The notes below the pieces were generated by a model that did no database searches, was not told where the DNA came from, and worked only from the letters and a program-made list of their open reading frames with translations. This document shows, piece after piece, positions 2,495-33,306 of a DNA stretch of 64,000 nucleotides. Numbering within the stretch: position 1 is the first letter of the stretch; each line of letters opens with the position of its first letter. Source of the stretch: Cupriavidus basilensis (GTDB lineage: Bacteria; Pseudomonadota; Gammaproteobacteria; Burkholderiales; Burkholderiaceae); assembly GCF_000832305.1 (NCBI RefSeq), contig NZ_CP010537.1, positions 744,001 to 808,000 on the forward strand. The letters run 5' to 3'. The position numbers and the translations under genes are program-made.

Positions 2495-2562
2495 GCGGGA
2501 GCTCAATGCTCGCCATCTTCGTTGGCGGCGGCGGAAGAAACTCGAACGAGGAGACAAAACAC

Positions 2563-3075: not shown

Positions 3076-3135
3076 CTACCAGATTTCGCTCAGAACTGCG
3101 ACTCATCCCGAGGGTGAGGGCGCACGGAGAAAAGC

Positions 3136-4164
3136 ATGAACGTCGAGCAAGAGAGACAACGCTATTACGAGAATCTGCGGCCCTTGAACCTCGCACCGCT
3201 CTGGAGCGTGCTGAAGAAACTCGTGCCCGCCGAACCGGTACCGGAAGCTCAACCCTGGTGCTGGAACTGGGAGGATGTCTACCCTCAGCTGCTTCGCGCA
3301 GGACCGCTGATTTCAGCCGAAGAAGCGGAGCGCCGTGTTCTGGTGCTGGAGAACCCGGGCCTGCCCGGAAAATCACAGGTGACGGACACTCTCTACGCGG
3401 GGATCCAACTAATCTTGCCCAGCGAAGTCGCGCCTGCGCATCGCCACACGCAGTCGGCGCTACGCTTTGTCCTGCACGGAACCGGCGCATACACGGCCGT
3501 TGATGGCGAGAAGACGCGGATGAACCGGGGCGACTTCATTATTACGCCCTTCTGGACGTGGCACGACCACGGCCATGAAGGCACGGAACCAGTTGTATGG
3601 CTGGACGGGCTTGATGTGCCGCTTGTCAACTTTCTGCGGGCGGGGTTCCGCGAGAGTCATGAGGAGAAGGCACAGCCATCGACGCGAGTGAGTGGCGAAA
3701 CGGCCGCCCGCTTTGGCTCAGGCATGCTGCCGCTCCAGTGCGACCGGGGCAATGCCACGTCGCCGATCTTCAGCTACCCGTACGAGCGCTCCCGCGAGGC
3801 GCTTCACGTCCTGGCCGGTGTCGAAGCGCCGGACCCCCATCTGGGCATCTGCCTTAAGTATGTGAATCCGCTGAACGGCGACTGGGCCATGCCCACGCTC
3901 GGCACGACACTACGCTATTTCCCGCGCGGGTTCTCTACCCGGCCGTATCGCTCTACCGAAAGCCTGGTCCTCGTCTGCGTTGAAGGACGCGCTAAAGTCA
4001 CGATCGAGGAGGGGCCTACCTTTTCGGTGGGCCCTAACGACATTGCAGCAATTCCAGGCTGGTGTGCCTGCACTATCCACGCGGAGGAGGACTCGGTCTT
4101 CTTCAGCTATTCAGATCGGCCTGTGCACGAGAAGCTTGGCTTGCTGCGCGAGCAACGCGACTAA
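3136..4164 (+). CDS. Gentisate 1,2-dioxygenase
   Basis: 342-residue bicupin protein of the usual gentisate dioxygenase length. Iron ligands are visible as H102 and H104 in PAHRHTQSALRF and H143 in WTWHDHG. A second cupin lies in the C-terminal third, around residues 240-330. The start has a clear ribosome site (CGGAGAAAAGC). Family knowledge: Fe(II)-dependent cleavage of gentisate between C1 and C2 to maleylpyruvate. It follows the salicylyl-CoA hydroxylase genes and precedes a fumarylacetoacetase-fold hydrolase, which fits ring cleavage after release of gentisate from CoA. This is the first of three gentisate dioxygenase-like genes in the window. Confidence 0.92.
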   Translation: MNVEQERQRYYENLRPLNLAPLWSVLKKLVPAEPVPEAQPWCWNWEDVYPQLLRAGPLISAEEAERRVLVLENPGLPGKSQVTDTLYAGIQLILPSEVAPAHRHTQSALRFVLHGTGAYTAVDGEKTRMNRGDFIITPFWTWHDHGHEGTEPVVWLDGLDVPLVNFLRAGFRESHEEKAQPSTRVSGETAARFGSGMLPLQCDRGNATSPIFSYPYERSREALHVLAGVEAPDPHLGICLKYVNPLNGDWAMPTLGTTLRYFPRGFSTRPYRSTESLVLVCVEGRAKVTIEEGPTFSVGPNDIAAIPGWCACTIHAEEDSVFFSYSDRPVHEKLGLLREQRD

Positions 4165-4189
4165 CCCTCACTCTCTTGAAAGCATCATC

Positions 4190-5047
4190 ATGAAACTCTG
4201 CATCTTTGACGACGACCGCATCGGTGTCGCCCTCGGACAGGATGTCGTCGACATTACCGATGTCTTCGCTTCGTCCTTTCGCCCAACCTGGCCTTATCCG
4301 AAGTATGACTGGATCATCAACAACTTCGAGAGCGTGCGGCCCCACATCGACGAGGCCATAGAGTCCGGGCGACGCGTTCCGCTTGCCAGTGTCCGTCTCC
4401 GCGCCCCTGTGGCCAATCCCGGAAAAATCATCGCCGCGCCGATCAACTACAAGGATCACATTGCAGAGGCCAACAACGACCCACAGATTAATCATGGGAA
4501 AACGTTCACGGACCTGAGCACGCTCGGGGTTTTCCTGAAGGCAAACAGTTCAGTCATTGGTTGTCATGAGGACATCAGGATTCCGTTCCCTGATCGCCGC
4601 ACAGATCATGAAGTTGAACTGGCGGTCGTGATTGGCCGTGAAGCCAAGAAGGTGTCGCGGGAAAACGCTCTCGCTTTCGTGTTTGGGTATTGCATCGGAC
4701 TTGACATGACGGTGCGCGGCCCCGAGTTGCCTGATTTCCGTAAGTCGGCGGATACGTTCTCTGTTCTCGGCCCCTGGATCGTCACAGCGGACGAGATCCC
4801 GGAGCCCAACTCCCTAGATCTGAGCATCCACGTCAACGGCGAACTGCGCCAGCAGTCGAACACCAAGTACCTGATCTATGACGTGCAACGGCTGATCGAG
4901 TACGCATCGGCGATGTACACGCTGTATCCCGGAGACGTAATCATGACAGGGACGCCCGCCGGCGTGAGCCCGGTCACTTATGGTGACATTCTGGAAGCGA
5001 GTGTTTCCGGTATCGGGACGATGACTGCGCGCGTGGCCGCAAATTAA
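4190..5047 (+). CDS. Fumarylacetoacetate hydrolase-family protein (maleyl-/fumarylpyruvate hydrolase)
   Basis: 285-residue FAH-fold hydrolase. The metal-binding acidic motif is HEVELAVVIG, followed by GYCIGLDMTVRG and the C-terminal signature GDVIMTGTPAGV. ATG 4190 is chosen because MKLCIFDDDRIGVA is the normal beginning of this family; the frame is open further upstream but overlaps the dioxygenase. It would hydrolyse the ring-cleavage product. No maleylpyruvate isomerase gene is visible anywhere in the window, so either that enzyme is encoded elsewhere or this hydrolase acts directly on maleylpyruvate, giving maleate and pyruvate. Confidence 0.88.
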   Translation: MKLCIFDDDRIGVALGQDVVDITDVFASSFRPTWPYPKYDWIINNFESVRPHIDEAIESGRRVPLASVRLRAPVANPGKIIAAPINYKDHIAEANNDPQINHGKTFTDLSTLGVFLKANSSVIGCHEDIRIPFPDRRTDHEVELAVVIGREAKKVSRENALAFVFGYCIGLDMTVRGPELPDFRKSADTFSVLGPWIVTADEIPEPNSLDLSIHVNGELRQQSNTKYLIYDVQRLIEYASAMYTLYPGDVIMTGTPAGVSPVTYGDILEASVSGIGTMTARVAAN

Positions 5048-14743: not shown

Positions 14744-15480
14744 GACGTCCCCCCAATAGTGATGGGACTTAAAACTAGAGCTCGGTCATTTCTGACGATC
14801 TGACCTTGTGGGCCATGGCGTACTCGCTCGGGGTCAGTTTGCCGAGCGAGCCGTGCGGTCGTTGATGATTGTGATCACGCCGCCAGGCTTCAATGATCTG
14901 CTTCGTGTGGTCCAACGATGTGAACTCATGCTTGTTCAGGCATTCGTCGCGAAACCGTCCATTGAATGACTCGCAAAGCCCGTTGTCGGTTGGCTTTCCG
15001 GGGCGTGTGAAGTCCGGTTGCACATGGTTCTCCCAAGCCCAGGCATCGAGCGCTCTGGAGGTGAATTCGGTGCCATGATCTACCGTGATGCACGCTGGCA
15101 GTCGGGTCACCCTTCCGACCCGGCTGAGGGCCTCGACGACGCTGGCGCCCGTTAATCGGAATCCCACCTCAAGCAGCGGGCTCTCGCGACTCCAATTGTC
15201 GACCACGGTCAGCACCCGAAACGCCTGCCCATTAGACAACTGATCGTGGACAAAATCCATGCTCCAGCGCTGGCCAAGTGTCGTCGGCATCGGCGCTGGG
15301 CCGCGGTGTAGGCTCAGACGCTTCTTTCGACGCACCCGCTACGCACCTCCAGCCCCTCTAGGCAATACAGTCGATGCACCCGCTTGAAGATTCACGTGCC
15401 AACCCTCGCGACGCAAGAGAATGTAGATGCGCTCATAACCGTCGGGTGTGAAGCTCCAATGACAATGTGTTTCCCGACCG
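14744..15480 (-). pseudogene. IS3-family transposase OrfB remnant
   Basis: On the minus strand, 15335-14775 encodes the rve/DDE core of an IS3 OrfB: QRWSMDFVHDQL, TVDHGTEFTSRALDAWAW and KPTDNGLCESFNGRFRDECL, ending in NHQRPHGSLGKLTPSEYA. The preceding HTH region (YERIYILLRREGWHVN and KRVHRLYCLEGLEVRS) is present between about 15340 and 15440 but in two other frames, so at least two frameshifts are present. OrfA and the second terminal repeat are missing. The end near 14744 has the C-rich TGACGTCCCCCCAATAGTG sequence. Confidence 0.8.
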
Positions 15481-15758: not shown

Positions 15759-15782
15759 TACATACCGACCCGACGGTTTGTA
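15759..15782. promoter_or_regulatory. Candidate TetR operator, copy 1
   Basis: TACATACCG-ACCCGA-CGGTTTGTA: two 9-bp half-sites matching in 8 of 9 positions around a 6-bp spacer. The same design occurs at 19984-20007 (TACAAACCG-GGCAGA-CGGTATGTA), giving the consensus TACAWACCG-N6-CGGTWTGTA. It lies about 190 bp before the dioxygenase gene that heads the operon containing the TetR gene at 19066. Confidence 0.7.
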
Positions 15783-15970
15783 AGATGCAGGGCTGAGGGT
15801 GGGGCGATTTGGAGCACATCTCCGGCACTGCCGCTGGCGTAGGGTTGGCGGGTCCAGTTCCGACCTGTACAACACCAAGCAATTCGAGGGGGCGTGATGA
15901 GAGAGGTCGTGCCATACCGCATGGTGCGGACCATCATCCAGGTCACAACTCGACATGGCAAAGGAAAAAA

Positions 15971-16951
15971 GTGTCTGAAATCCTGCAAGACGTCTCTATT
16001 GCTGACTACGATGCGATCCGCGACGTTGATGAACTCGTACGAGCAATCGATTCCCGCGATTGCACCCCAGGCTGGGTTCAGCGTTCTGAACCTTTGATGT
16101 GGGCTACGCCGCGATCACGCTTCGTGCCAGCCCATTGGCGCTATGCGGAGATGCGGTCGGCCCTGGTCGCCGCCGGACGTGTGATAGGCACGGATCTCGC
16201 CGAGCGGCGCAATTTTATCTTGCGCAACCCGATCCCCGGCAATGACTTTGCCACCACCCGGACGCTGGTTGGGGCGTATCAGTCGATACTGCCTGGTGAG
16301 AAGGCCCGTTCACACCGGCACTCCTCACACGCGCTGCGGGTGATCATTGAATCCCACGGATCCTATTCGGTTGTAAACGGCAAGCGGCACCCGATGGAAA
16401 GCGGCGATATAGTCCTGACGCCTGGTGGGTATTGGCACGGGCATGGCCACGATGGCGACGAGCAGGCATTCTGGTTCGACTGTCTCGACCTGCCACTCGT
16501 GCACCTGCTCGAACCGATGACTGTCCAGGAGCATCCGCTTCAGTGGGAGGCGGATGTTGAAGAGGTGATCGAATCGCCAATGCGCCTGAGTTGGTCGGGC
16601 ACGCTCAGCAAACTTGCGCAATGTGTGGACGAGGACCGTCACTTTGGCAACACGGTCGACCTGACGTCCGAGCAAATGTCGACGATCACGATCAAGGTCC
16701 ACGAATGGACTGCGGGCTGGAAGAACGATCCCTATCGGCAGCGCACAAATACGATCTATGTCGTCCTGCGCGGCAATGGCCGCAGTGTCATCGGCGATTC
16801 GCACTTCGAGTGGGGCTTTGGCGACGTGATCGCCGTGCCGATGAATGTGAGGGTGGCGCACGCCGTGGACCAGAACGCGATTCTGGTCGCGCTGTCGGAT
16901 GAAGGCTTAATGAAGCACTGCGGATACTACGCGCTGGAAGACTGTGAGTGA
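15971..16951 (+). CDS. Gentisate 1,2-dioxygenase-like cupin protein
   Basis: 326 residues from GTG 15971, chosen because an AAAGGAAAAAA ribosome site precedes it and no ATG is available near it. Cupin iron ligands are visible: H115 and H117 in SHRHSSHALR and H156 in GGYWHGHGHDG. A second cupin unit occupies about residues 235-320. It is more divergent from standard gentisate dioxygenases than the copies at 3136 and 30475, but it heads an operon with a 3-hydroxybenzoate 6-hydroxylase and a fumarylacetoacetase-fold hydrolase, so gentisate or a substituted gentisate or salicylate is the likely substrate. Confidence 0.8.
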   Translation: MSEILQDVSIADYDAIRDVDELVRAIDSRDCTPGWVQRSEPLMWATPRSRFVPAHWRYAEMRSALVAAGRVIGTDLAERRNFILRNPIPGNDFATTRTLVGAYQSILPGEKARSHRHSSHALRVIIESHGSYSVVNGKRHPMESGDIVLTPGGYWHGHGHDGDEQAFWFDCLDLPLVHLLEPMTVQEHPLQWEADVEEVIESPMRLSWSGTLSKLAQCVDEDRHFGNTVDLTSEQMSTITIKVHEWTAGWKNDPYRQRTNTIYVVLRGNGRSVIGDSHFEWGFGDVIAVPMNVRVAHAVDQNAILVALSDEGLMKHCGYYALEDCE

Positions 16952-16967
16952 CAATAGGACGCAAACA

Positions 16968-18179
16968 ATGAAGCAAAGCGATCAGAACCCGATCATTGTG
17001 GTCGGAGGCGGGCTTGGCGGAGTCGCCACGGCGCTAGGACTCGGCAGACGCGGCAAGGCCGTCTGTTTGCTGGAGCAATCTGCGGAGATCGCGCCGATCG
17101 GGTATGGGGTACAACTGGGTCCCAACGTACTGCCGGCCCTGGCTCAGCTTGGGTTGGAGCGCGAAGTCCGGATGGCCTCCTACTATCCGGAGGAACTGAC
17201 GCTGTATGAAGCCTTCAGCGGTGAGGTGCTCGCACGCGTTCCTCTATGCGGGGCGGCCTTCGACGGTCGCTATCCTGCGCCCTATATTGCCATCCACCGG
17301 GTCGATCTGCATGAAATACTGTTGAAGGCGTGTCGCGCACTGCCGAATGTCTCGCTGAACCAGGCGACGACGGTGACCGGCTTTACACAGGACGCCGAAC
17401 GCGTGTATGTGGAGAGCAGCACCGGGCAGAAGCTCGAAGGCAGCGCGTTGATTGCGGCTGACGGGTTGCGGTCGCGAATCCGCGCTCAGCTATACCCCGA
17501 AGACCAGCCCTACGATACCGGCTATATTGCGCACCGTACTATTGTCGCCATGGCGGATGTTCCCCCGTTGATGCGCAAGCGCCGCGGCGTGACGATGTGG
17601 ACCGGTCCGGGTTTCCACGTAATTTACTACCCATTGCGCGATGCCACGGAGATGAATATCGTGGCTGTATTCGAAACGCCTACGGATGGTTCGGAAATGA
17701 ATGACGAGGGCTATTCGAAACATATCGCTCGAGTGTGTGCCGATGCGCAGCCAGAAGTAAAGGAAGTGGTCTCGATCGTCAATTTGGAGCGGCGCTGGAG
17801 CATTGCGGACCGCCATCCCATCCGCAAATGGCGTCGCGGGTTGGTCGTTCTGCTCGGTGATTCCGCCCACGCGACTCTGCAGTCGTTGGCGCAAGGTGCC
17901 GGCATGGCGATCGAAGATGCGGTGACGCTCAGCGGGCTGATCGACGAACACGGTAGCGACTACGAGCAAGCCTTTGGCAGATTCGAAACACTCCGATTTG
18001 GACGAACTACGCGGGTACAACTCGAGTCTCGCGCACTATGGCATACCTATCACTGCGATGGCGTGGACGCGGAAATCCGAACCCAGCAACTGCAGGAGCG
18101 GACTCCCGAAGATTTCTACCGCTGCCTTGACTGGCTCTGGAAATCGCAGCCATTTAACCATTCGAAGGAGAACTCATGA
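16968..18179 (+). CDS. 3-hydroxybenzoate 6-hydroxylase-like FAD monooxygenase
   Basis: 403 residues from ATG 16968; a GTG at 16944 that overlaps the dioxygenase stop is an alternative and would add eight residues. The FAD motif VVGGGLGGVATALGLGRRGK is at the N-terminus, the DG motif appears as AADGLRSRIR, and the GD motif is GDSAHATLQSLAQGAGMAIE. Length and style match 3-hydroxybenzoate 6-hydroxylases (for example NagX, MhbM), which convert 3-hydroxybenzoate to gentisate with NADH and O2. The position directly after a gentisate dioxygenase-like gene supports this. Confidence 0.87.
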   Translation: MKQSDQNPIIVVGGGLGGVATALGLGRRGKAVCLLEQSAEIAPIGYGVQLGPNVLPALAQLGLEREVRMASYYPEELTLYEAFSGEVLARVPLCGAAFDGRYPAPYIAIHRVDLHEILLKACRALPNVSLNQATTVTGFTQDAERVYVESSTGQKLEGSALIAADGLRSRIRAQLYPEDQPYDTGYIAHRTIVAMADVPPLMRKRRGVTMWTGPGFHVIYYPLRDATEMNIVAVFETPTDGSEMNDEGYSKHIARVCADAQPEVKEVVSIVNLERRWSIADRHPIRKWRRGLVVLLGDSAHATLQSLAQGAGMAIEDAVTLSGLIDEHGSDYEQAFGRFETLRFGRTTRVQLESRALWHTYHCDGVDAEIRTQQLQERTPEDFYRCLDWLWKSQPFNHSKENS

Positions 18180-19069
18180 AGCTGTGCAGATTCAATGGCG
18201 ACCGGCTCGGTTGCGTCGAGAACGACACCGTCTACGATGTCACGGCCGCGCTCAACGCGCTGCCGGCGTTGCGCTGGCCGGCAATTCTAGGTGACCCGCT
18301 AATTCGGCATCTCGATATTCTGCGTGAAGCAGTTGGCGTTGCCCGTCGCGGCGCAAACGCACAGAAGCTGGACGAAGTCCGGGTGCACAGTCCACTGACA
18401 AATCCTTCCAAGGTAATGGCGGCCCCGGCTAACTACCGTCTACACGTCGAGCAGGATACGAAGGACGCGGGCGTCGATGCAGGCGTTCATCGCATGGCAC
18501 TTGAGGGGGTGGACCGGCCTGCGGAGTACTATGGCTTGTTCCTCAAGGCAGCCTCTTCCGTGGTGGGTCCCACCGAGGGCGTGCAAATTATTCTGCCGGA
18601 TCGCCGTACCGACTATGAGGTCGAGCTGGCGGTGGTGATCGGCAAGCCAGGTCATTCGATTCAACGCGAGCACGCGCTGTCCCATGTGGCTGGCTACTGC
18701 ATCGGGCTTGACATGACCGTGCGCGGCAAGGAGGATCGGAGCTTTCGCAAATCGCCCGACAGCTACACCGTGCTCGGACCGGCGTTCGTGAGCGCAGACG
18801 AGATCGCGGACCCGCACGCCCTGACACTATCGCTCTGGGTGAATGGGGAGCGCCGCCAGCATAGCTCGACCGGCGCCATGACGTTGGACATCCCGGAACT
18901 GATCGCGATCGCCTCAACAATGTATACACTACAGCCGGGCGACGTGATCCTGACCGGCACTCCGGAAGGTGTCGGCGCCGTTGCCCCAGGCGACGAAATC
19001 CGCGCTGCATGTTCTGGAATCGGAGAAATGTCGGTGCGGGTTACCCAACATCCAAGCTCATTGACATGA
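18176..19069 (+). CDS. Fumarylacetoacetate hydrolase-family protein (fumaryl-/maleylpyruvate hydrolase)
   Basis: 297 residues. The metal motif YEVELAVVIG, the conserved GYCIGLDMTVRGKE and the C-terminal GDVILTGTPEGVG are present. The ATG overlaps the hydroxylase stop (ATGA), which indicates translational coupling. It would split the gentisate ring-cleavage product into pyruvate and a C4 acid. As in the first module, no maleylpyruvate isomerase gene accompanies it. Confidence 0.88.
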   Translation: MKLCRFNGDRLGCVENDTVYDVTAALNALPALRWPAILGDPLIRHLDILREAVGVARRGANAQKLDEVRVHSPLTNPSKVMAAPANYRLHVEQDTKDAGVDAGVHRMALEGVDRPAEYYGLFLKAASSVVGPTEGVQIILPDRRTDYEVELAVVIGKPGHSIQREHALSHVAGYCIGLDMTVRGKEDRSFRKSPDSYTVLGPAFVSADEIADPHALTLSLWVNGERRQHSSTGAMTLDIPELIAIASTMYTLQPGDVILTGTPEGVGAVAPGDEIRAACSGIGEMSVRVTQHPSSLT

Positions 19070-19743
19070 AATCCACAGCAACTTCTTCGACGAAACGCCG
19101 GCGCACACAAGCGGAACGGACTCAAGAAACGCAGCAGAAGCTAGTGCGCGGCGCCATTGCGTTGCTCAAGCGGAAGCGGTACACAGGCTTTCGCACGGCC
19201 GATGTCGCGGAAGAGGCTGGTGTCTCCAAGGGCGCCCAGACGCATCATTTCCCGTCAAAGGACATGCTTGTGCTCGAGGCGCTGGAAGAGGTCTATCGGC
19301 AGACGCAAGAGAACGCGATGAAGCGCATTGCCCAGGCAAAGGCATCGCCTGAGGAATTTGTTGAACTGTTGGTCGCTGATAGCGAATCATTTTTCTTGAG
19401 CGACGACTTTTTGCTATCGCTGGACCTGATGATGGTGGATCCGCAATCCCCGCTTGGCGTAGGCGTTAAAGAACTGGCACAGCGTTACCGGCTTCCGGTC
19501 GAGAAGGCCTGGGTCGATGCACTGATTGACGCCGGCAATGATCGTGCCAAGGTGACGCAGGTGGTCGGTCTGACCTACGCGCTCGCCCGCGGCTTTGGCG
19601 TCCGCCAACTGATCAGCGACCCCGGGGACGATTTCCACCTGTTAATGCAGTCTTGGCTCGAAACGGCACGCGCCATGCTGGAGCACAAAGCCTGTTCCGC
19701 CCGACCCAGTCGCACACCCCGAGCGGTGCGCAAGGCTGGCTGA
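19066..19743 (+). CDS. TetR-family regulator of the gentisate operon
   Basis: 225 residues from ATG 19066, which overlaps the hydrolase stop. The N-terminal helix-turn-helix reads FRTADVAEEAGVSKGAQTHH, followed by FPSKDMLVLEALE. The C-terminal ligand domain is not diagnostic. As the last gene of the operon it is probably autoregulated. Near-identical inverted repeats at 15759-15782 (before the operon) and 19981-20010 (before the Bug receptor gene) are the best candidates for its binding sites. The ligand could be 3-hydroxybenzoate or gentisate. Confidence 0.88.
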   Translation: MKSTATSSTKRRRTQAERTQETQQKLVRGAIALLKRKRYTGFRTADVAEEAGVSKGAQTHHFPSKDMLVLEALEEVYRQTQENAMKRIAQAKASPEEFVELLVADSESFFLSDDFLLSLDLMMVDPQSPLGVGVKELAQRYRLPVEKAWVDALIDAGNDRAKVTQVVGLTYALARGFGVRQLISDPGDDFHLLMQSWLETARAMLEHKACSARPSRTPRAVRKAG

Positions 19744-19980
19744 TCGGCTGCATCTCGACAAAATAGGGGGGGGTGGGTCATACCCTAATTTTCAGCGCCT
19801 GTGTATCGGCGAAGTCGAGACAGCCTTGTCGGCTCGCATACCAAGAATAGTGCAAAAGCACACTATCACGACATTCCTTGCAACGCCGCAACCCCACTGT
19901 AGCGGCTAGGCCCCATGAGATGCGCATCGGCGCGAGCCATGGGGAACCCTAATGGAAATTGAGTTCCGTGAGGGGTCTTA

Positions 19981-20010
19981 TTATACAAACCGGGCAGACG
20001 GTATGTATAA
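19981..20010. promoter_or_regulatory. Candidate TetR operator, copy 2
   Basis: TTATACAAACCG and CGGTATGTATAA form a 12-bp inverted repeat with 11 matching positions around the spacer GGCAGA. The central 24 bp match the site at 15759-15782. It sits about 50 bp before the start of the Bug receptor gene, overlapping where a promoter is expected. The 315-bp gap after the TetR gene holds nothing else that I can identify. Confidence 0.7.
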
Positions 20011-20058: not shown

Positions 20059-21057
20059 ATGAAGCGCGATAACCCCACTTCCGCTACGCGGCGCCACACA
20101 CTTTCTGCACTATTGGCGGTAACTCTTTCGACAGTTGCAGGACGGCCAGCTTTAGCCCAGCGGTTTCCCAACAAGCCATTCAGGATCGTCGTGGGTAGCC
20201 CGCCCGGTGCGTTAGGCGACGTACTCTCTCGTCTCCTGGGCCAGAAGCTTTCCGAAGCGACCGGGCAGCCCGCCGTTGTCGACAACCGCCCTGGCGCAAG
20301 CGGCTCCATTGCAGCGGACTTGGTTGCCAAGGCGCAGGCCGACGGCCATACGCTGCTGATCGCACCGGATAGCGTGGTGGTTGTCAATCCCTTTGTGTTC
20401 CCGAAGCTGACCTACAACCCGGCCAAGGACTTCCGCTCTGTCGCCCTGCTGGGAAAGGCTACGCTTGTTCTGGTGGTTAGTCCGGCACTTGGCGTCAGAA
20501 CGCTCCAGGCGTTTGTAAAACTCGCCAGATCAAAGCCCGGGGCCATCAATTTCGGGACCGGAGGCGCAGGGCACCCCACCCATATGGCGATGGAGCTTGT
20601 CATGGACCGACTTGGGATAAAGCTCACCCACGTTCCCTACAAGGGAACCTCGCCCGCCTTGCAGGGGCTGATGGGAGGTGAAATAGGCTCCATGGTTGTG
20701 GGCGTGGCGGAAGCCATGCCCCTGATCACGGCTGGCAAGCTCGTACCGCTTGCAACAAGCGGGCCGGCGGCCAAGGAGATCTTCCCGGCCTTGCCGGAGC
20801 TCAAGGCTTCCCACCCGGATCTCGATATAGCGGTCTGGTTCGGCATGTTCGCCCCAGCTGCAACACCCACGGACGTCGTGTCGCGGTTGAACGCAGAGGT
20901 CAATCAGGCACTTCAGCAAGCCGACATCAGGAGGCGGCTTAGAGAATATGGGCTAACTCCGCTGCCCGGCGGGGCCACCGCGCTGGACACCCTGATAGCG
21001 CTGGACAGGGCGCGCTTCGGCCCGCTGGTCAAGTCCCTTGGCATCGCCCTTGAGTAG
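20059..21057 (+). CDS. Tripartite tricarboxylate transporter receptor (TctC/Bug family)
   Basis: 332 residues. A signal peptide ends near residue 34 (twin Arg TRRHTLSALLAV, then PALAQ). The mature part begins RFPNKPFRIVVGSPPGALGD and contains VVDNRPGASGSIAADLVAKA, typical of Bug solute-binding proteins. These periplasmic proteins bind carboxylates; many have no cognate TctAB genes nearby, as here. A ribosome site AAAGGAG precedes the ATG. The shared operator suggests co-regulation with the gentisate operon and hence a role in capture or sensing of an aromatic acid. Confidence 0.9.
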   Translation: MKRDNPTSATRRHTLSALLAVTLSTVAGRPALAQRFPNKPFRIVVGSPPGALGDVLSRLLGQKLSEATGQPAVVDNRPGASGSIAADLVAKAQADGHTLLIAPDSVVVVNPFVFPKLTYNPAKDFRSVALLGKATLVLVVSPALGVRTLQAFVKLARSKPGAINFGTGGAGHPTHMAMELVMDRLGIKLTHVPYKGTSPALQGLMGGEIGSMVVGVAEAMPLITAGKLVPLATSGPAAKEIFPALPELKASHPDLDIAVWFGMFAPAATPTDVVSRLNAEVNQALQQADIRRRLREYGLTPLPGGATALDTLIALDRARFGPLVKSLGIALE

Positions 21058-21188: not shown

Positions 21189-22322
21189 ATGAAGCAGTCA
21201 TCATATAAGAGGGAGAAGGGATTCTGCACCTCTCAGCTAACGTTTCGGATCGCGTTGCTTGTGGCAGCGGCTACAACATTTGGAACAGCGCAAGCCCAGA
21301 GCGTCAGTCTCTATGGCGTGGTGGATACGGGCATTGAATATGTCAGCAACATCGGTCCGAGCCGATCCGACTCCTTCCGCATCCCGACGATTACAGGCTC
21401 AGTGCCGTCTCGCTGGGGGCTGCGAGGAAAGGAAGACCTCGGGGGCGGAACATCCGCCGTTTTCGTGCTCGAATCAGGTTTTGGGGTTGACCAAGGTACG
21501 CTGAACCAGGGAGGTCGGCTTTTCGGCAGGCAAGCGTATGCCGGACTCTCCGGTAGTTGGGGGACGTTGACGGTAGGGCGGCAGTACTCGCAAATATATT
21601 GGGCGCTCATCGGCGACACCATGGGGCCCAATATATTTGCCGCGGCAGATCTAGATACTTATCTCGCAAATTCACGTGTGGACAACGCCATCGCGTACTC
21701 CGGAAAGTTCGGTGCATTCGCGGCCGGCATTACTTATTCATTGGGACGCGATGCCGTATTGCCAGCAGCAGCTGGCGGATGCGCTGGAGAGTCACCGACC
21801 GACTGGAAGGCGTGCAAGGCATTCTCGGCAATGCTGAAATACGACACGGGATCGTGGGGATTGGCAACGGCATTTGATCGCAATTTCGGCGGTGCTGGGG
21901 CCGGTTCACCATTACCCGCGAGTTCGCAGACAGATACCCGCATCCTCGTCAACGGCTATGCGAAGTACGGTATCGCTGCGTTTGGTGGTGGACTCGTCCA
22001 CCGCAAGAACGAGGGTGCACCCTTCCCTACGAGCAACTACTGGTTTGCCGGCGTAACCGTGTCACCGACGGCGCAGATTGACCTTGACCTGCAATACGGT
22101 CTTTTGAGGGTCCGGTCCAGCCCTGCCGGCGCATCCCTTGTCGCACTGCGGGCAATGTACAACCTGTCGAAGCGTACGGCGGTTTATGTGACGGCGGGCA
22201 GGATCTTCAATCAGGAAAAGTCCACACTTACCATTGACGGCGGAAATCTACCTACCTCCAATACGCCGCTACCCGGCGTGGGACAGACTGGTGCAATGGT
22301 CGGAGTTAGGCATGTGTTCTGA
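21189..22322 (+). CDS. General porin (OmpC-like, beta-proteobacterial)
   Basis: 377 residues. A signal peptide with cleavage after AQAQ is followed by SVSLYGVVDTGIEY, the hallmark N-terminal strand of Burkholderiales trimeric porins. Further hallmarks are SRWGLRGKEDLGGG, GFGVDQGTLNQGGRLFGRQA and the C-terminal aromatic residue in GVRHVF required for outer-membrane assembly. It follows the Bug receptor gene by 131 bp and may carry the same aromatic substrate across the outer membrane. Confidence 0.92.
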   Translation: MKQSSYKREKGFCTSQLTFRIALLVAAATTFGTAQAQSVSLYGVVDTGIEYVSNIGPSRSDSFRIPTITGSVPSRWGLRGKEDLGGGTSAVFVLESGFGVDQGTLNQGGRLFGRQAYAGLSGSWGTLTVGRQYSQIYWALIGDTMGPNIFAAADLDTYLANSRVDNAIAYSGKFGAFAAGITYSLGRDAVLPAAAGGCAGESPTDWKACKAFSAMLKYDTGSWGLATAFDRNFGGAGAGSPLPASSQTDTRILVNGYAKYGIAAFGGGLVHRKNEGAPFPTSNYWFAGVTVSPTAQIDLDLQYGLLRVRSSPAGASLVALRAMYNLSKRTAVYVTAGRIFNQEKSTLTIDGGNLPTSNTPLPGVGQTGAMVGVRHVF

Positions 22323-22577
22323 AAGGGCGACAGAAATGAAATATGGAGGAGACAACAAGCAGGCGATCATGTGACTTTGCGTGCGGAAGAAATCAGATTG
22401 AATCCAACGGAGACTAGCTGGGTACGCTAGAAGTCTCCCTTCGGTAACCATGGGTGAGCAGGCGTGCCGGCGAACGGAGCGGCCTTGCCGCCACGAACCT
22501 TCGGAGGGTCGCGCGACTCCTCGGGCTGACGGCATCCGGTAATGCCGAACAGTCAGGGTTGATTGCGACAAATCTTT

Positions 22578-23666
22578 ATGTTTCCTTTAAACAGCTGGTA
22601 CGTGGCCGGATGGGACCACGAGATTGGGCGGAAATTGCTGGCAAAGATGATCTGTGGCATCAAGGTTGTCCTTTACCGCAAGACCGATGGAAGCGTTGCT
22701 GCGCTCGAGGATGCTTGCTGGCACCGCCAGTTGCCGCTTTCGTTGGGAACCCTGGAAGGAGACACGGTGACCTGCGGCTACCACGGTCTGAGTTTCAACG
22801 GTGATGGCCGGTGTACCCACATGCCGTCTCAGGAAACCATCAATCCGTCCGCGTGTGTACGTAGTTTTCCTATCGTTGAGCAGCACCGTTTTGTGTGGAT
22901 CTGGATGGGCGAAGCGCATCTCGCGGACCCGTCGAAGATTCCGGATTTCCATCAGAATGAAAATCCTGAATGGGCTGGCGATGGTGGTACAACGCACCTC
23001 GAGTGCGATTACCGGTTACTGGTGGACAACCTGATGGATCTGACGCACGAGACCTTCGTGCACTCATCCAGCATTGGCAACCGAGCCGTGGCAGAGGCTC
23101 CCTTCACGGTGTCTCGTACTGAAGAATCGGTTATCGTGACGAGGTGGATGATCGGTATCGACCCGCCACCGTTCTTCAAGAAGCAACTCGGCGGCGAGTG
23201 CCTGGTCGATCGTTGGCAGATCATCACGTTTCGCGCACCGAGCGCCGTCACTATCGATGTCGGCGTGGCCCGGACCGGCACCGGTGCCCCTCAGGGTGAC
23301 AGGAGCAAGGGGGTGACCGGCTTTGTCATTCATGTCAGTACACCCGAGACGGAGCGATCATGTCACTACTATTGGGCCTTCCTGCGCAACTACCAGCTAT
23401 CGAGTCAGAAGTTGACGACGGAATGGCGTGAGAGTGCGAGAAGCATCTTGGCCGAAGACAAGACAATCCTTGAAGCCCAACAGAAGGCTGTGGACTTCTA
23501 TGGGGATCGCGACTTCAACCCACTTAGTATCGACAGCGGCGTCATTCTCGCCCGCCGCCGGATTGAAGAGATGGTGGCTACCGAGCGCCAGAACGTCAAT
23601 GGCTACGCGAAGCCGATCATTCCTATCGTTGCCGCGCCAACGCAGATCGGGGAGATGGCAAAATGA
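22578..23666 (+). CDS. Rieske oxygenase subunit, VanA-like aromatic O-demethylase
   Basis: 362 residues. The Rieske 2Fe-2S ligands are C47 and H49 (ACWHRQ) and C66 and H69 (TCGYHG). The mononuclear iron facial triad region is DNLMDLTHETFVH. The start MFPLNSWYVAGW is typical for vanillate demethylase VanA. The ATG at 22578 has a weak ribosome site. With VanB it would demethylate a methoxybenzoate to the hydroxybenzoate plus formaldehyde. The position behind the 3-hydroxybenzoate/gentisate operon makes 3-methoxybenzoate a possible substrate as well as vanillate. Confidence 0.87.
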   Translation: MFPLNSWYVAGWDHEIGRKLLAKMICGIKVVLYRKTDGSVAALEDACWHRQLPLSLGTLEGDTVTCGYHGLSFNGDGRCTHMPSQETINPSACVRSFPIVEQHRFVWIWMGEAHLADPSKIPDFHQNENPEWAGDGGTTHLECDYRLLVDNLMDLTHETFVHSSSIGNRAVAEAPFTVSRTEESVIVTRWMIGIDPPPFFKKQLGGECLVDRWQIITFRAPSAVTIDVGVARTGTGAPQGDRSKGVTGFVIHVSTPETERSCHYYWAFLRNYQLSSQKLTTEWRESARSILAEDKTILEAQQKAVDFYGDRDFNPLSIDSGVILARRRIEEMVATERQNVNGYAKPIIPIVAAPTQIGEMAK

Positions 23667-24619
23667 CCCGTAAGTACACCGCAAGCCTGAGAGCCTATCG
23701 GGATGTATGTTCCGACGTACGAATGTTTGAATTCAGCGCGGAGGGATTCCCGACACGATTTCAGGTCGGCAGTCACATCGATGTCTGGTGTGGCGATGGT
23801 TCGCGTGCTCATGTACGCTCGTATTCCTTAATCGGAAGCCATTTCCAGAAGGACTCTTTTCTGATTGCAGTCCGTAAGGTTCCGAACTCGCGCGGAGGAT
23901 CCTCGTTCATGTGGAACCTTGAGACCGCCCAAAGCCTGCAAGTCAGTGCTCCGCTCAGCGAATTTCCCCTATCGGACCGCTGTGTGCCGAAGCTGCTGAT
24001 CGCGGGTGGAATCGGCATTACGCCGCTGGTGAGCATGGTCGAGCAACTCGATGCGGATGACTCGGACTTCCGCTTGCTCTACGCAGGCCGCAGCCGCGAA
24101 ACGATGCCGTTCCTGAATGAGCTTGGCGAGCGACTCGGCGACAGACTGACCATCTATGACGAAGGCGCGGGCCGGGTTCTCGATATTGCAGTGACGATCG
24201 GTAGCCTTCGCAGAGACGCAGAGCTGTATGTCTGTGGGCCACTTGGCATGCTCAATGCTGCGCGCGCGGCATGGGAGAATGACGGGCGGGACTCCGCCGA
24301 CCTGCGCTTTGAGACTTTTGCCAACAGCGGGAGCTTGCCAACGACAGCATTCCGGGTATCCGTTCCGCGGCTGAAGCTTGACCTCGACGTGGGCCCAGAC
24401 CAGACGCTGCTCGAGGTCCTGGAGGCAGTGGGCGCTGACCCCTTGTACGGTTGCCGCAAGGGGGAATGCGGGCTTTGTGCTGTTGAGGTTTTGGACTTGG
24501 ATGGCACGATTGATCATCGCGACATATTCTTCAGCGATGAGCAGAAAAGAAGTCGCCAGAAGCTATGTGCATGCGTGTCGCGTATATCGGGCCGGTGTGT
24601 GACAATTGATCTTCCATAG
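23663..24619 (+). CDS. VanB-like oxidoreductase (flavin, NAD and 2Fe-2S domains)
   Basis: 318 residues; the start overlaps the VanA stop (ATGA). A ferredoxin-NADP reductase-like module holds the flavin motif VRSYSLIG and the nucleotide-binding stretch IAGGIGITPLVSMVEQL. The C-terminal plant-type ferredoxin domain carries the cysteines CRKGECGLC with a distant fourth cysteine near KLCACV. It delivers electrons from NADH to the VanA-like oxygenase. Family members are about 315 residues, so it is complete. Confidence 0.9.
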   Translation: MTRKYTASLRAYRDVCSDVRMFEFSAEGFPTRFQVGSHIDVWCGDGSRAHVRSYSLIGSHFQKDSFLIAVRKVPNSRGGSSFMWNLETAQSLQVSAPLSEFPLSDRCVPKLLIAGGIGITPLVSMVEQLDADDSDFRLLYAGRSRETMPFLNELGERLGDRLTIYDEGAGRVLDIAVTIGSLRRDAELYVCGPLGMLNAARAAWENDGRDSADLRFETFANSGSLPTTAFRVSVPRLKLDLDVGPDQTLLEVLEAVGADPLYGCRKGECGLCAVEVLDLDGTIDHRDIFFSDEQKRSRQKLCACVSRISGRCVTIDLP

Positions 24620-28513: not shown

Positions 28514-29482
28514 CTACTCAGCAACTACGCCGGCAGCCTTGATCATGGCGGAGGTCTGCTGGCTTTCGGCTCGGATTGTATCAGCCAGCATCTTGCCATC
28601 GCCGGCTACAACGGTGAGACCCTTCGCATGGACTTGCTGCTCGACGAACACCGGATCCCTCAGCACTTCCGCTACGGCCGCCCGGATCTCTTTGACTACG
28701 GCGTCTGGCGTACCGGCCGGCGCAAACAGCGCATACCAGATCGAGCTCTTGGCATAGGGAAAACCTTGTTCCACCGTGGTCGGCACGGACGGGTACTGGC
28801 TCAGTCTGGTATCGGCCGCCACTGCCAGCGGCTTGAGCCTGCCGGACTTGATATGGGTTTCCATCACGGCGACGCTGCCGCTGGCAAGCTGCACGTCACC
28901 CGCCAGCAATGCAGTCAGATTCTGCGAGATGCCGTTGTAGGGCACATGCAGGAGTTGAATCTTCTCGTGATCGTTGATCGCGGAGAAGAGCAGGTGCGGC
29001 TGGCTGCCGTTCCCGTAGGAGCCGAAGTTCAGGCTGTCCGGCTTCTTCCTGGCCAGATCCACCAGCTCCCTGAGGGAATTTGCGGGCAGCTTGGCATTGG
29101 CCACGATCAACTGGTCGGCCTTGACCATCATGATGACCGGCGCAAAACTCGTCTCGGGATTGTACGGCAGCCTTTTGTACAGGAAGCGGTTTGAGACGAC
29201 AGTCTGGTTCACCGTCGCCAGCAGTGTGTAACCGTCTGCAGGCGCGCGCGCCACAAATGCCGCGCCAATCGCGGAGCCCGCGCCGGCCTTGTTATCCACG
29301 ACGATCGGCTGCTTCCAACGGGCAGTCAACCGACTTGCCATGGCGCGGACGAGGACGTCGATGCCGCCCCCGGCGGCGAACGGGACGATGACGTTGACGG
29401 GCTTTTCCGGATAGGCGGCCAGCACCGGCGCGGCAGCGAGCAGCAAGGCGCTGGATGCGAACAGCGTTATCTTCTTGAACAT
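28514..29482 (-). CDS. Tripartite tricarboxylate transporter receptor (TctC/Bug family)
   Basis: 322 residues from ATG 29482, chosen because MFKKITLFASSALLLAAAPV is a proper signal peptide; the frame is open upstream without support. The mature protein starts AYPEKPVNVIVPFAAGGGID and contains VVDNKAGAGSAIGAAFVA, as in Bug receptors. It probably binds an aromatic or dicarboxylic acid in the periplasm. It sits between the hydrolase gene (108 bp away) and the GntR gene (74 bp), all on the minus strand. Membrane partners TctA/TctB are not encoded in the window. Confidence 0.9.
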   Translation of the reverse strand: MFKKITLFASSALLLAAAPVLAAYPEKPVNVIVPFAAGGGIDVLVRAMASRLTARWKQPIVVDNKAGAGSAIGAAFVARAPADGYTLLATVNQTVVSNRFLYKRLPYNPETSFAPVIMMVKADQLIVANAKLPANSLRELVDLARKKPDSLNFGSYGNGSQPHLLFSAINDHEKIQLLHVPYNGISQNLTALLAGDVQLASGSVAVMETHIKSGRLKPLAVAADTRLSQYPSVPTTVEQGFPYAKSSIWYALFAPAGTPDAVVKEIRAAVAEVLRDPVFVEQQVHAKGLTVVAGDGKMLADTIRAESQQTSAMIKAAGVVAE

Positions 29483-29590
29483 GTTGTCTCCTGATCTTCT
29501 TGTACGGGTGCCGCCGGCAGTCCTTGCCTGCACCGGTTTATCGGACGTCGCGGCACGGTCCGCGATGTTGGTCACAAGGCCCGGTCCGTT

Positions 29591-30478
29591 CTAGTATGCA
29601 CGTGGAGCCACGGCTTCGCGTTCCTTGACGTCCAGACTCATTTCACCCACGCCCTGGATGGCAATCTTCAACGTATCGCCTGCCGCGAACGCTCCAACGC
29701 CTTCCGGTGTGCCGGTAGCGATGACATCGCCAGGCGACAGCGGCAGCACCGACGAGATCAACTCGATCAGCTCCGCCACGCCAACGATCATGTCCTGTGT
29801 TGACGCTTGCTGGCGCAGTTCGCCATTGACCCATAGCTGGTTGCTCAACCCGTGTGGATCGCCGACCTCGTCGGCCGTGACGATCCATGGCCCCAGCGGG
29901 GTGAAACCCTCAAAGGATTTGCGCATCGAGCGCTCTTCTTCCGCGACGCCGGGTTCGATTCGCATGGTGGCGTCGATCAGGCAGGCATAGCCGAACACGT
30001 ATTCCATGGCGTGTTCGCGTGGAACATCGCGACCCGCTTTCCCAATGATGATCGCCAGCTCGGATTCGTGATCGAAGCGCCGGGTGGAACCCTTGGGCAG
30101 GAAAATCGTACCGCCGGCCCCAACCAGGGAGCCGGGTGCCTTCAAGAAGAAGCCTTGTTCCCTGGCGCTACGGCCGCCCTTGGTGACGACGCGATCCCCC
30201 AGTTCGCCGATGTGCTTGCGGTAGTTTGCCGGTGCGGCAAATACATGCGGCGGGCAGGGCGCGGCAGGAAGCAGGCGCACCGCATCCAGGCGTCGAGGGA
30301 GGCTTGCCGCGCGACATCGCTTGAGTTCCTCCTGAACACTGTCCCAGTTGGCGATGAGCCAGTTCAACCGCTGCTGCGGAAAAGCGTCGATACCGGCAGG
30401 TACCACCGCGGTGACATCGTACAGTTGGTCTCCTTCCACCAGACCAATCCGGTAATCGTCGAACGACCCGATCTTCAT
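29591..30478 (-). CDS. Fumarylacetoacetate hydrolase-family protein
   Basis: 295 residues. The N-terminal style MKIGSFDDYRIGLVEGDQLY, the metal motif HESELAIIIGKAG and the C-terminal GDVIATGTPEGVGAF place it with ring-cleavage-product hydrolases. The sequence between differs from the other copies: GYACLIDATMRIEP replaces the usual GYCIGLDMTVRG. The ATG overlaps the dioxygenase stop (ATGA), so it is coupled to it. The expected role is hydrolysis of maleyl- or fumarylpyruvate. Confidence 0.87.
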   Translation of the reverse strand: MKIGSFDDYRIGLVEGDQLYDVTAVVPAGIDAFPQQRLNWLIANWDSVQEELKRCRAASLPRRLDAVRLLPAAPCPPHVFAAPANYRKHIGELGDRVVTKGGRSAREQGFFLKAPGSLVGAGGTIFLPKGSTRRFDHESELAIIIGKAGRDVPREHAMEYVFGYACLIDATMRIEPGVAEEERSMRKSFEGFTPLGPWIVTADEVGDPHGLSNQLWVNGELRQQASTQDMIVGVAELIELISSVLPLSPGDVIATGTPEGVGAFAAGDTLKIAIQGVGEMSLDVKEREAVAPRAY

Positions 30479-31524
30479 GCCAGTTCCTCTCTAAAGTAAC
30501 CCAATGATTTCAGTACCGGCAGATCGTTGACCTGCCACAGCAGGGCGTCTTGCCCGCCGGTGTTCTCATGTGCGTGCCAATCCCATGGCGCAACCGTGAA
30601 GAGGTCGCCCGCGCACCACGCGAAGCGCTGGTCCCCGACGCTGGTCGCCCCTTCGCCGCGCATGACGTAGTAGAGCTTGCTGCCGGTGTGGCGCCGCTTC
30701 CGCCCCACAAAGCCGGACCGCAGCAGCTGCATCCGCATGGCGAGCGTTGGCATGGCAGGGCCGCCGCCCAGCGGATTGCGATACTCGAGCGCAACATCGT
30801 CATACGCATCACCCGGCATGCCCGCGGCGGCTGCGATAGCCTTCTCGGCCATGTCGAAAGGGTAGGCCAGCAGGGGGTTGGCGCCGCCGGCGCGAGGCTG
30901 CGCCCCAGGAGGCATCATCAAGCCGCTGCCGAATTGGCGCCAGCTCCGGTCCGGCATCGTGTCCACCGGCTGCAGGCCATCCGTGTAGGGTTCGAAGAAC
31001 GTGGCTTCCAGCGCTTGCATCAGCGAGATGTCAAGGACGTCAAGCCAGATCATGGGCTGGTCGCCCCGATGCACGTGATCGTGCCACGCCCACGATGGCG
31101 TCAGCACGAGATCGCCCGTGCGCATCGGATAGCACTCGCCATCCACCGTCGTCCATGCTCCCTCGCCTTGCATGATGAATCGCAGGGCATTGGCAGTGTG
31201 GCGGTGCGCGGTGGCGACTTCGCCTGGCAGGATGACCTGGATCGAGGCCCAGAACGTATTGGTGGTGCCGCGCGGCAGGCCGGGGTTGTGCAGGCGCAGT
31301 GTCCGGCGCGGCCCACCTGCGGTCAGGTCGACCTCCTGACCGATGCGTTCCAGCAAGGGGCACAGATCCTCCCAGCGCCAATGCACGGACTGGGTCGCAG
31401 GCTGCGGGCTGCGCGTGAACAATGGGGGATCGTCTGGCTGGTGCACTCGGCAGTGGTACTTTGCCAGGTCCTGCTTCAGTGCACGTCTGCGATCCGCGTC
31501 CTGGCCGATGAGCTCGTCTGACAT
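30475..31524 (-). CDS. Gentisate 1,2-dioxygenase
   Basis: 349 residues from ATG 31524, one base after the hydroxylase stop. Iron ligands are H107 and H109 (TAHRHTANALRF) and H148 (WAWHDHVHRG). The order of motifs, including VHWRWEDLCPLLER at the N-terminus and NPLGGGPAMPTL in the second cupin, matches standard gentisate dioxygenases. It opens the ring of gentisate between C1 and C2. It lies in an operon with a flavin hydroxylase upstream and a hydrolase downstream. Confidence 0.92.
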   Translation of the reverse strand: MSDELIGQDADRRRALKQDLAKYHCRVHQPDDPPLFTRSPQPATQSVHWRWEDLCPLLERIGQEVDLTAGGPRRTLRLHNPGLPRGTTNTFWASIQVILPGEVATAHRHTANALRFIMQGEGAWTTVDGECYPMRTGDLVLTPSWAWHDHVHRGDQPMIWLDVLDISLMQALEATFFEPYTDGLQPVDTMPDRSWRQFGSGLMMPPGAQPRAGGANPLLAYPFDMAEKAIAAAAGMPGDAYDDVALEYRNPLGGGPAMPTLAMRMQLLRSGFVGRKRRHTGSKLYYVMRGEGATSVGDQRFAWCAGDLFTVAPWDWHAHENTGGQDALLWQVNDLPVLKSLGYFREELA

Positions 31525-31525
31525 A

Positions 31526-33196
31526 TCAGATCTCGGCCAGTTGGTAAGCGCGGCGCGGAACAGGACTGCCAGAGGCACCCATGCCCCGCACGACATCGAC
31601 GATGCGGCGGGCATCTGTGGGGACAGTGTCGCCACGCCATGCCACCGAGCCGTCCGGTCGTACCAGCACCAGGCGGCGTCCATAGATGGCCCGGGCTTCG
31701 CCTTGCGCGATATCGGCCACCTCCAGCGGCAGACCGACCTCTGCAGCCGCCTGCGTGATGGCATCCACCCCCGGAGGATGATCGCCAAAGCGCAGCAGTA
31801 CGTAGTGCTTGCCGAAAAGGTCTAGCGTGGACTTTCCTTTGGAAAGCCACACGTGGGGCGCGCGCGATCCCGGCCTCGCGCTCTGCGTGTACCGCGCCAC
31901 CTCGTTGGGCGGGGCGGGCGTGCCATCGGGAACGACGATCGGCGAATCCTCGTAGACATAACCGAGATGGATGCCGATGGAGAACCATTCGCGCTTCATC
32001 ATCTCCGTATAACGCGCACCGTACTCACGGCGTGCTGCATCGATATGCACGTTGTCGCTGTCGAAGATGGCCGCTTCAGGCTTGACCACCCGCGGCGACA
32101 GCATCCGCCGGAGATTCTCTCCGGCTTCTGTGACGTTGCGCACCGCGACAGGCCGCTGCTCATCCTCGTAGGAATCGAGCAGAAGGGGGCCGCCCCAGCC
32201 CTGCAGCGTGCCAGCCAGCTTCCAGCTCAGGTTGACCACATCGAGGATGCCCGTGTTCATACCGAAGCCGCCTGTCGGGGAGGTCAGGTGTGCAGCGTCG
32301 CCGGCGATGAAGACCCGTCCCTTGCGGTAATGGTCCGCCACCAGTTGCCGCCTGACCCAGGGCAGGACCGAGAGGATCTCGAAGTCGAACTCCCGTCCCA
32401 CGGCTCGAACGATGGCGCGGCGGATCTCGTCCTCACCGAGCGTGCGCTTTTCGGCGTTGCCTACCAAAGAGAATCGCCATTGGTCACGGCCGTTGATGGC
32501 CACCAGCGTCGCCCAGGTGCCCTCCGGTCCGATGAAGATATAACGGTAGCCGGGCTGCTTGGTGTGAAGCCGCTCGAGCCCGTCGCAGCGGAAGATGACG
32601 TTGGTAGTGTAAGTCAGTACGGCATCGCCCGACATGCCGATACCGAGTGCCTGGCGCACTGCGCTGGCACCGCCGTCGCAGCCCACCAGGTACTGCGCTT
32701 CGATCTGGTGGCGTGCTCCGGTTTTCCCATCCTTGACCGTCACGATTACGTGGTCACCACGGTCTTCCAGTGTCTCCAGCTCCGTCTCGTACACCAATTC
32801 CGCGACCCCCGTGCTGGCGGCAAAGCGCTGCAGCACCGGATCGAAGAAGTTCTGCGGGCAGCGCTCACGCTTTTGCGGGCTTTGTGGCGGACATGTTTCG
32901 TTTCTTGGCGCGGGGAATGTCTCCCGGCCGAACTCATATCCGTTCAAGTCGGTTACCCAGGCACAGTCCTGCGGGTAGTCCCGGTTGTAGCCGGCCTGTT
33001 CCACCGCCTCGACGATGCCCCAACGCCGGCACAACTCCATGGTTCTGATGCCGACCATGTCCATGCGAGGCTGAGGAACGACTCCGTTGCTCCTCTCGAT
33101 CAGGGTGCACTTGACACCACGCCATCCGAGATCGCCCGCCAATGCCAGGCCGACCGGTCCGCCTCCCACGATCAGCACCGGGGTCTTCTGGATCAT
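31526..33196 (-). CDS. FAD-dependent aromatic hydroxylase (MhpA/PheA-TfdB family)
   Basis: 556 residues from ATG 33196, with a good ribosome site (GGAGGGA). FAD-binding motif VLIVGGGPVGLALAGDLGWR, DG motif GCDGGASAVRQALGI, and GD motif FIAGDAAHLTSPTGGFGMNT. The C-terminal 150 residues form the thioredoxin-like domain seen in phenol, resorcinol and 3-(3-hydroxyphenyl)propionate hydroxylases. It is the first gene of the operon. Context suggests hydroxylation of a monohydroxybenzoate or related compound to gentisate or a substituted gentisate; the true substrate cannot be read from sequence. Confidence 0.87.
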   Translation of the reverse strand: MIQKTPVLIVGGGPVGLALAGDLGWRGVKCTLIERSNGVVPQPRMDMVGIRTMELCRRWGIVEAVEQAGYNRDYPQDCAWVTDLNGYEFGRETFPAPRNETCPPQSPQKRERCPQNFFDPVLQRFAASTGVAELVYETELETLEDRGDHVIVTVKDGKTGARHQIEAQYLVGCDGGASAVRQALGIGMSGDAVLTYTTNVIFRCDGLERLHTKQPGYRYIFIGPEGTWATLVAINGRDQWRFSLVGNAEKRTLGEDEIRRAIVRAVGREFDFEILSVLPWVRRQLVADHYRKGRVFIAGDAAHLTSPTGGFGMNTGILDVVNLSWKLAGTLQGWGGPLLLDSYEDEQRPVAVRNVTEAGENLRRMLSPRVVKPEAAIFDSDNVHIDAARREYGARYTEMMKREWFSIGIHLGYVYEDSPIVVPDGTPAPPNEVARYTQSARPGSRAPHVWLSKGKSTLDLFGKHYVLLRFGDHPPGVDAITQAAAEVGLPLEVADIAQGEARAIYGRRLVLVRPDGSVAWRGDTVPTDARRIVDVVRGMGASGSPVPRRAYQLAEI

Positions 33197-33306
33197 TTTG
33201 TCCCTCCATTCTTCATTTAAGCCGACGCTGCTGCCCGCTAACCAGAACCGTCGACATAACTCGATAAAGCATTCCACCTCGGGGCATGCGCCGGACATTA
33301 TTAAGC

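Follow-up and report, generated by a model that had tools for sequence, protein, structure and literature searches.

The 64,000-nucleotide stretch of the Cupriavidus basilensis genome analyzed here (contig NZ_CP010537.1, positions 744,001 to 808,000; hereafter the window) carries two matching 24-bp palindromes, one upstream of a short aromatic catabolic operon whose last gene encodes a TetR-family regulator and the other just upstream of a gene for a Bug (TctC) solute-binding receptor. We propose that these are the two operators of a CymR-like regulon, in which the TetR protein encoded at 19066-19743 would repress both its own operon and the Bug unit through the palindromes, and we give this reading a probability of roughly 0.8. 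The sites and genes at its center are listed below; FAD stands for flavin adenine dinucleotide.

15759..15782, + strand: operator 1 (TACATACCG-N6-CGGTTTGTA), upstream of the catabolic operon, 0 mismatches
15971..16951, + strand: cupin ring-cleavage dioxygenase, gentisate 1,2-dioxygenase-like (TIGR02272, 192.4 bits, cut-off 442.1); GTG start inferred from homologues
16968..18179, + strand: FAD aromatic monooxygenase, 3-hydroxybenzoate 6-hydroxylase-like (NF006021, 368.9 bits, cut-off 459)
18176..19069, + strand: FAA-hydrolase (FAH) family enzyme, fumarylpyruvate hydrolase-like (PF01557, 169.6 bits)
19066..19743, + strand: predicted TetR/CymR-like repressor (PF00440); its start codon overlaps the stop of the FAA-hydrolase gene
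19984..20007, + strand: operator 2 (TACAAACCG-N6-CGGTATGTA), upstream of the Bug gene, 0 mismatches
20059..21057, + strand: Bug (TctC) solute-binding receptor (PF03401, 202 bits)

Both palindromes had been picked out in an earlier note on this DNA, and both are present without mismatch where it placed them, as TACATACCGACCCGACGGTTTGTA (operator 1) and TACAAACCGGGCAGACGGTATGTA (operator 2). The gene order is likewise as claimed, with operator 1 before the operon, tetR as its fourth gene and operator 2 before Bug. The note's description of identical half-sites with an identical 6-bp spacer is correct for the arms and for the spacer length, but the spacer letters differ (ACCCGA in operator 1, GGCAGA in operator 2), leaving an overall agreement of 19/24 bases. 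Operator 1 ends 188 bp upstream of the first operon gene, taking its probable GTG start at 15971, and operator 2 ends 51 bp upstream of the Bug start codon. The possible -10 element (TATACA) of a candidate promoter found by eye, TTGAGT-17-TATACA, overlaps operator 2; this promoter is not among the matches of a promoter and terminator scan of the window, a scan that itself performed at chance level. An integrase-core (rve) fragment of an insertion element lies about 420 bp upstream of operator 1 (14775-15335, - strand).

The sites are rare. Within the window, a search allowing three mismatches returns operators 1 and 2 as its sole matches (shuffle mean 0.02; two matches in 0 of 100 shuffles), which agrees with the earlier statement that the motif occurs nowhere else there. 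The same note had proposed a genome-wide search, and many unrelated copies did not emerge: across 8,421,483 bp in two contigs there is no third copy at up to two mismatches, and at up to three mismatches the two operators are joined by one three-mismatch site at C1:2095067. A reversed-pattern control gave two matches per direction at up to three mismatches and none at up to one. From base composition, about 0.00015 exact matches would be expected per genome, an estimate that assumes a G+C content of 63% (that of the window is 58%). Arms stripped of their inner bases (ACAAAC-N10-GTTTGT) are found at seven places in the genome at up to one mismatch, compared to four for the control, and 15 times in the window at up to three mismatches, compared to 15.0 expected. 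Because these counts are close to control and expectation, the two operators are special solely when the inner CCG/CGG and the outer T/A bases are included. A chance origin is rejected by the window shuffles, by the rarity in the genome and by shuffled sets of TetR loci (below); derivation of both operators from one duplicated promoter is also rejected, as their flanks are unlike by eye.

The placement of the operator is conserved. A profile search of genome contigs with the TetR alignment yielded 161 loci with relatives, and the best 80 of these plus L118 were analyzed, 81 in total, scoring each site by its matching arm bases out of 16. A full syntenic run, defined as dioxygenase-monooxygenase-hydrolase-TetR-Bug at 50% identity or more, is present in six of the loci analyzed and in no others (L012, L118, L013, L014, L015 and L017), and all six have an operator before the catabolic genes, with scores of 15, 15, 16, 16, 15 and 14, respectively; L018, which comes from a short contig with part of the operon and has a site scoring 12/16, is left out of this count. 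The operator is shortly upstream of the dioxygenase gene in four of the six and about 3.9 kb earlier in two Variovorax plasmids, ahead of additional genes, one of them for another Bug receptor. In these Variovorax versions (L012, 991-9730; L118, 1952-10681, from a Variovorax boronicumulans plasmid) the operon is extended, all behind one operator, by genes for a SnoaL-like protein (annotated in L118), an F420_oxidored-type protein, the second Bug receptor and a fumarate-reductase-like FAD enzyme. The window Bug is 62-66% identical to the Bug that follows tetR in the six relatives. At L016, where the TetR is 51% identical, a 14/16 site stands directly before tetR.

Co-occurrence of the site with this TetR subfamily is also confirmed. 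Sites of at least 14/16 are found in 11 of the 81 loci and of at least 13/16 in 17, whereas three shuffled sets gave 0, 0, 0 and 0, 1, 0. As a control, 27 loci of 3.5-4 kb that surround genes for other gentisate-type dioxygenases have best scores of 9-11/16 in 26 cases and 12/16 in one (L121). The six closest dioxygenase homologues (36-56% identity; six loci in four genomes) reach 9-11/16 at best, with no TetR match in their loci. The idea that the dioxygenase rather than the TetR protein carries the site along is rejected by these controls. TetR searches in two other families of the order gave 0/5 and 0/98, results that are uninformative on distribution because the samples did not contain the wanted clade.

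The regulator itself belongs to the TetR/AcrR family (PF00440, 38.7 bits, cut-off 24), and its structure model has an all-helical TetR-like fold (mean predicted local distance difference test score 86.9), with EthR2 (6hrz_B) as the top Foldseek match at a TM-score of 0.58, normalized to query length. It has no other close relative in its own genome, the next match scoring 38 bits compared to 482 for self. It is 39% identical over 184 amino acids to P0121, a CymR-type protein that matches 94% of the CymR sequence at 99% identity. The two are nearly identical in the segment GVSKGAQTHHFPSK (TetR) or GVSRGAQSHHFPTK (P0121), which, judging from the family, presumably holds the recognition helix.

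The closest described system is the CymR/cym-cmt regulon of Pseudomonas putida F1 (the cumate switch), which resembles ours in having a TetR-family gene near an aromatic-acid catabolic cluster and operators before separate catabolic units. The CymR operator is ACAAACAGAC-N6-GTCTGTTTGT (PMC5224996), and this site, CuO, also appears in PMC1654148 and PMC12868391. It has the same ACAAAC...GTTTGT arms, and it can be viewed as a pair of overlapping 24-bp units offset by 4 bp, each with 12/16 arm bases of the window site. This suggests that a single dimer may occupy each window site, as opposed to the composite CymR site. The two systems differ in their enzymes, and a Bug-type receptor gene is included in that of the window; the neighbors of our TetR are a gentisate-type dioxygenase, an FAD monooxygenase and an FAH enzyme rather than cym/cmt genes for p-cymene and p-cumate. 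We propose that the regulator may work like CymR with a variant operator and in another gene context.

A parallel to the second operator comes from CymR-like loci of the Bradyrhizobium type (L019, L022, L025 and others). Here an operator precedes a Rieske dioxygenase operon, with genes for a ferredoxin reductase and a Rieske dioxygenase and with a related tetR last, and a second operator precedes a solute-binding protein gene. They differ in the site, TACAAGCAG-N6-CTGTTTTTA, and in the receptor gene, which is divergent and encodes either Bug (five species) or Peripla_BP_6 (three species), the second, weaker site lying 71-114 bp upstream of it. Twenty-seven loci were chosen because a site of at least 12/16 falls between 3.5 and 4.5 kb of the locus; for five (L071-L073, L085 and L088) the choice followed the coordinate and not a similar gene order. 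A receptor-type gene is present on the minus strand in 15 of the 27 loci, displaced in one (L032). Within 220 bp upstream of the receptor gene, a site of at least 12/16 is found in 8 of these 15 loci, against a background of 1 in 1737 windows for the 27 loci (L021 at 16515) and 0 in 1010 for the 15.

In the model we favor, a TetR dimer would bind the palindromes at 15759 and 19984. When inducer is lacking, the dioxygenase-monooxygenase-FAH-tetR operon would be blocked, amounting to negative autoregulation, as would the Bug-led unit, possibly with the genes for a porin, a Rieske oxygenase resembling DdmC and the reductase partner. TetR would then be released by an aromatic acid, either the pathway substrate or an early intermediate, as CymR is by p-cumate. 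Binding and repression, together with how far the second transcript extends and which compound acts as inducer, are what we infer. Promoter output may additionally require an activator at a GGG-N3-5-CCC dyad located just upstream, which at operator 2 is the following feature.

19941..19949, + strand: GGGGAACCC dyad, putative activator element, upstream of operator 2

In 9 of 13 promoters the dyad lies some 30-40 bp ahead of the operator (300 shuffles: mean 0.2, maximum 2/13), and it occurs in 2 of 195 other upstream windows. This count took in 13 of the 23 main promoters; the ten left out (L016, L019, L023, L025, L026, L032, L033, L041, L046 and L058) carry it in 0/10, and the full dyad is lacking at operator 1, L012, L118 and L037. 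It was first noticed on the dioxygenase-type promoters, and since the interval of -45 to -22 was fixed after all promoters had been seen, its presence in 4/5 Rhodoferax-type promoters cannot serve as a clean hold-out test. The dyad of operator 2 overlaps an inverted repeat noticed by eye, CCCCATG/CATGGGG, and could be a different structure. The strict form, TAGGGAAANCCCTA, has no exact match in the genome, and TAGGGWAWWCCCTA at one mismatch has five forward and six reverse matches compared to one and one for the control, none of them in the window. The core GGGAWWTCCC of PAS-LuxR activators resembles the dyad but differs at its center, and we treat it as a lead; the GerE domain has 44 matches in the genome, all outside the window and the closest of them at C2:660110. 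The data suggest a candidate activator site that overlaps or sits just above the -35 region.

Three further genes on the same strand lie behind Bug.

21189..22322, + strand: Gram-negative porin (PF13609), 131 bp after Bug
22563..23666, + strand: Rieske oxygenase, O-demethylase type, DdmC-like (PF00355 and PF19112); TTG start uncertain
23663..24619, + strand: flavin/2Fe-2S reductase partner (PF00111, PF00175, PF00970), overlapping the Rieske gene

Operator 2 may also drive these genes, and with the porin and the Rieske pair possibly behind it, the regulon may be larger than the label 'Bug' implies.

The name 'gentisate operon' given to the catabolic genes in the earlier note is only partly borne out. 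Genes for a gentisate-type dioxygenase, a monooxygenase and a hydrolase are present, but the dioxygenase and the monooxygenase fall below their curated cut-offs, and of the two gentisate 1,2-dioxygenases in the genome that exceed theirs (C2:2220762 and C2:747151), the latter is the canonical enzyme at window positions 3136-4164 (476 bits). The gentisate label is tentative for these reasons. Aligned with 2d40, the operon's dioxygenase keeps H-x-H and a third H in the N-terminal cupin, residues that we take to be metal ligands, and its C-terminal half is weakly aligned. The top PDB matches of the monooxygenase (4bjy and others) are named probable salicylate monooxygenase. A comparable system is the canonical gentisate cluster of Cupriavidus necator H16 with GtdR and PgtdA (PMC11603403), which likewise groups a gentisate-type dioxygenase with enzymes of the fumarylpyruvate hydrolase and 3-hydroxybenzoate 6-monooxygenase types. 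In H16, however, the regulator is of the LysR type, and a maleylpyruvate isomerase and a major facilitator superfamily (MFS) transporter are present; the system described here has TetR, Bug and an operon without an isomerase gene.

Several observations weigh against a two-operator regulon. A second operator before Bug is seen in one of seven loci with the operon, the window itself; in all six relatives Bug directly follows tetR, and the gap between them holds no site of 11/16 or better. The Bradyrhizobium receptor sites are weaker (12/16), the remaining 7 of the 15 receptor loci score 9-11/16, and because the sequences fall into few related groups, the recurrence perhaps amounts to three independent cases, not eight. 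No site of at least 13/16 is present in 64 of the 81 TetR-relative loci, which is expected if distant members use other sites and limits the generality of the code. The CymR arms are 14 bp apart rather than 10 bp as in the window, and the published operator is not matched exactly. Finally, co-transcription of the porin and Rieske genes with Bug is possible as judged from strand and spacing alone, since the promoter and terminator scan was at chance level. Because Bug follows tetR without a site of its own in the six relatives, a single operon probably served both catabolism and uptake at an earlier stage; in the window the two are split and re-joined by the second operator. The small regulon linking the two, as the earlier note had it, stands in that the operator tracks the TetR subfamily and is found in 6/6 relatives; the joining itself looks older, the novelty being the second operator, and the regulon is maybe wider.

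From the lack of a site between tetR and Bug in the six relatives one could argue that operator 1 is the true TetR target and operator 2 a lookalike remnant or a site without a role, Bug being expressed independently, particularly as the loose arm pattern occurs at five other genomic places at one mismatch. We consider this unlikely: operator 2 has every specified base, its flanks differ by eye from those of operator 1 and so speak against passive copying of a promoter, the Bug start codon follows after 51 bp, and in Bradyrhizobium, too, a second site stands before a receptor gene. A reading of the palindromes as RNA hairpins or terminators is more improbable still. What speaks for it comes from 398 sampled genomes of the same bacterial family, nine of which match the pattern at up to one mismatch, namely this genome and eight of another genus. 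Those eight (L004-L011, at about 1501-1524) share one fitting 24-bp sequence, which forms the core of a longer palindrome; this spans roughly 44 bp around TACAAACCGTCTAGACGGTTTGTA, and its outer arms change in a paired manner. As neither TetR nor P0121 has a relative in their 3-kb loci (best tblastn E-value 0.70) and the palindrome is longer, we regard these as something else. The window palindromes extend little beyond 24 bp and precede genes, and conservation is concentrated in the columns of the outer arms while the center varies more, as expected for a dimer site; on extent, placement and column conservation we reject the hairpin reading. A serious contender, though somewhat short of an even chance, is a narrower form of the two-operator regulon devoted to O-demethylation, in which operator 2 would control Bug, porin, Rieske oxygenase and reductase, and operator 1 the lower pathway, with a methoxylated or a hydroxylated benzoate as the inducer. 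The closest PDB entry to the Rieske oxygenase is the dicamba O-demethylase DdmC (3gb4, 208.7 bits), which makes it plausible that O-demethylation precedes a route of the hydroxybenzoate/gentisate type. All these genes run in the same direction as the operon. In Rhodococcus ruber R1, growth on 3-methoxybenzoate and 5-methoxysalicylate is reported to correlate with the combination of a VanAB O-demethylase and a 3-hydroxybenzoate/gentisate route (PMC9867520). On the other side are the intergenic gaps behind Bug, 131 bp to the porin and 240 bp to the Rieske gene, and the Rieske pair has no tblastn match in 6/6 related loci, among which the Variovorax pair carries other extra genes.

Returning to the two-operator regulon under a CymR-like repressor, its kind is already known, and it is the recurrent coupling to a receptor gene that appears noteworthy. 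A limited open-access literature search, covering titles and the beginnings of abstracts, found no description of TetR/CymR-like control of a dioxygenase-Bug operon. It is attractive to think, although we hold the odds to be against it, that CymR-like repressors define a type of aromatic regulon not yet described, with a single repressor governing a ring-cleavage or ring-hydroxylation operon and, through a second operator, an exchangeable receptor gene (Bug or Peripla_BP_6). Its promoters would be double-keyed, with the palindrome over the core promoter and GGG-N3-5-CCC some 30-40 bp upstream for an activator, and the receptor may help to set the inducer level sensed by its own repressor. The sites provide an operator code, open to testing, for a subfamily of CymR-like TetR proteins that occurs with at least two kinds of aromatic pathway, and possibly a new repressor-operator pair related to the cumate switch. 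They may also give a handle on the ligands of receptor genes; to our knowledge, Bug proteins are numerous and mostly lack known ligands.

Elsewhere in the window, a second ring-cleavage cluster (1352-5047) combines the canonical gentisate 1,2-dioxygenase with an FAD hydroxylase and an FAH enzyme, and contains an aromatic-acid MFS transporter open reading frame of 247 amino acids that matches only about the first third of the family model and looks truncated. A third gentisate-dioxygenase-like cluster (28514-33502, - strand; dioxygenase at 30475-31788, 268 bits) includes a large FAD monooxygenase and an FAH enzyme. Three clusters with gentisate-dioxygenase-type enzymes within 64 kb suggest an aromatic catabolic island. 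An open reading frame at 25015-25824 matches only the C-terminal part of a resistance-nodulation-division (ACR_tran) efflux pump and is apparently a remnant.

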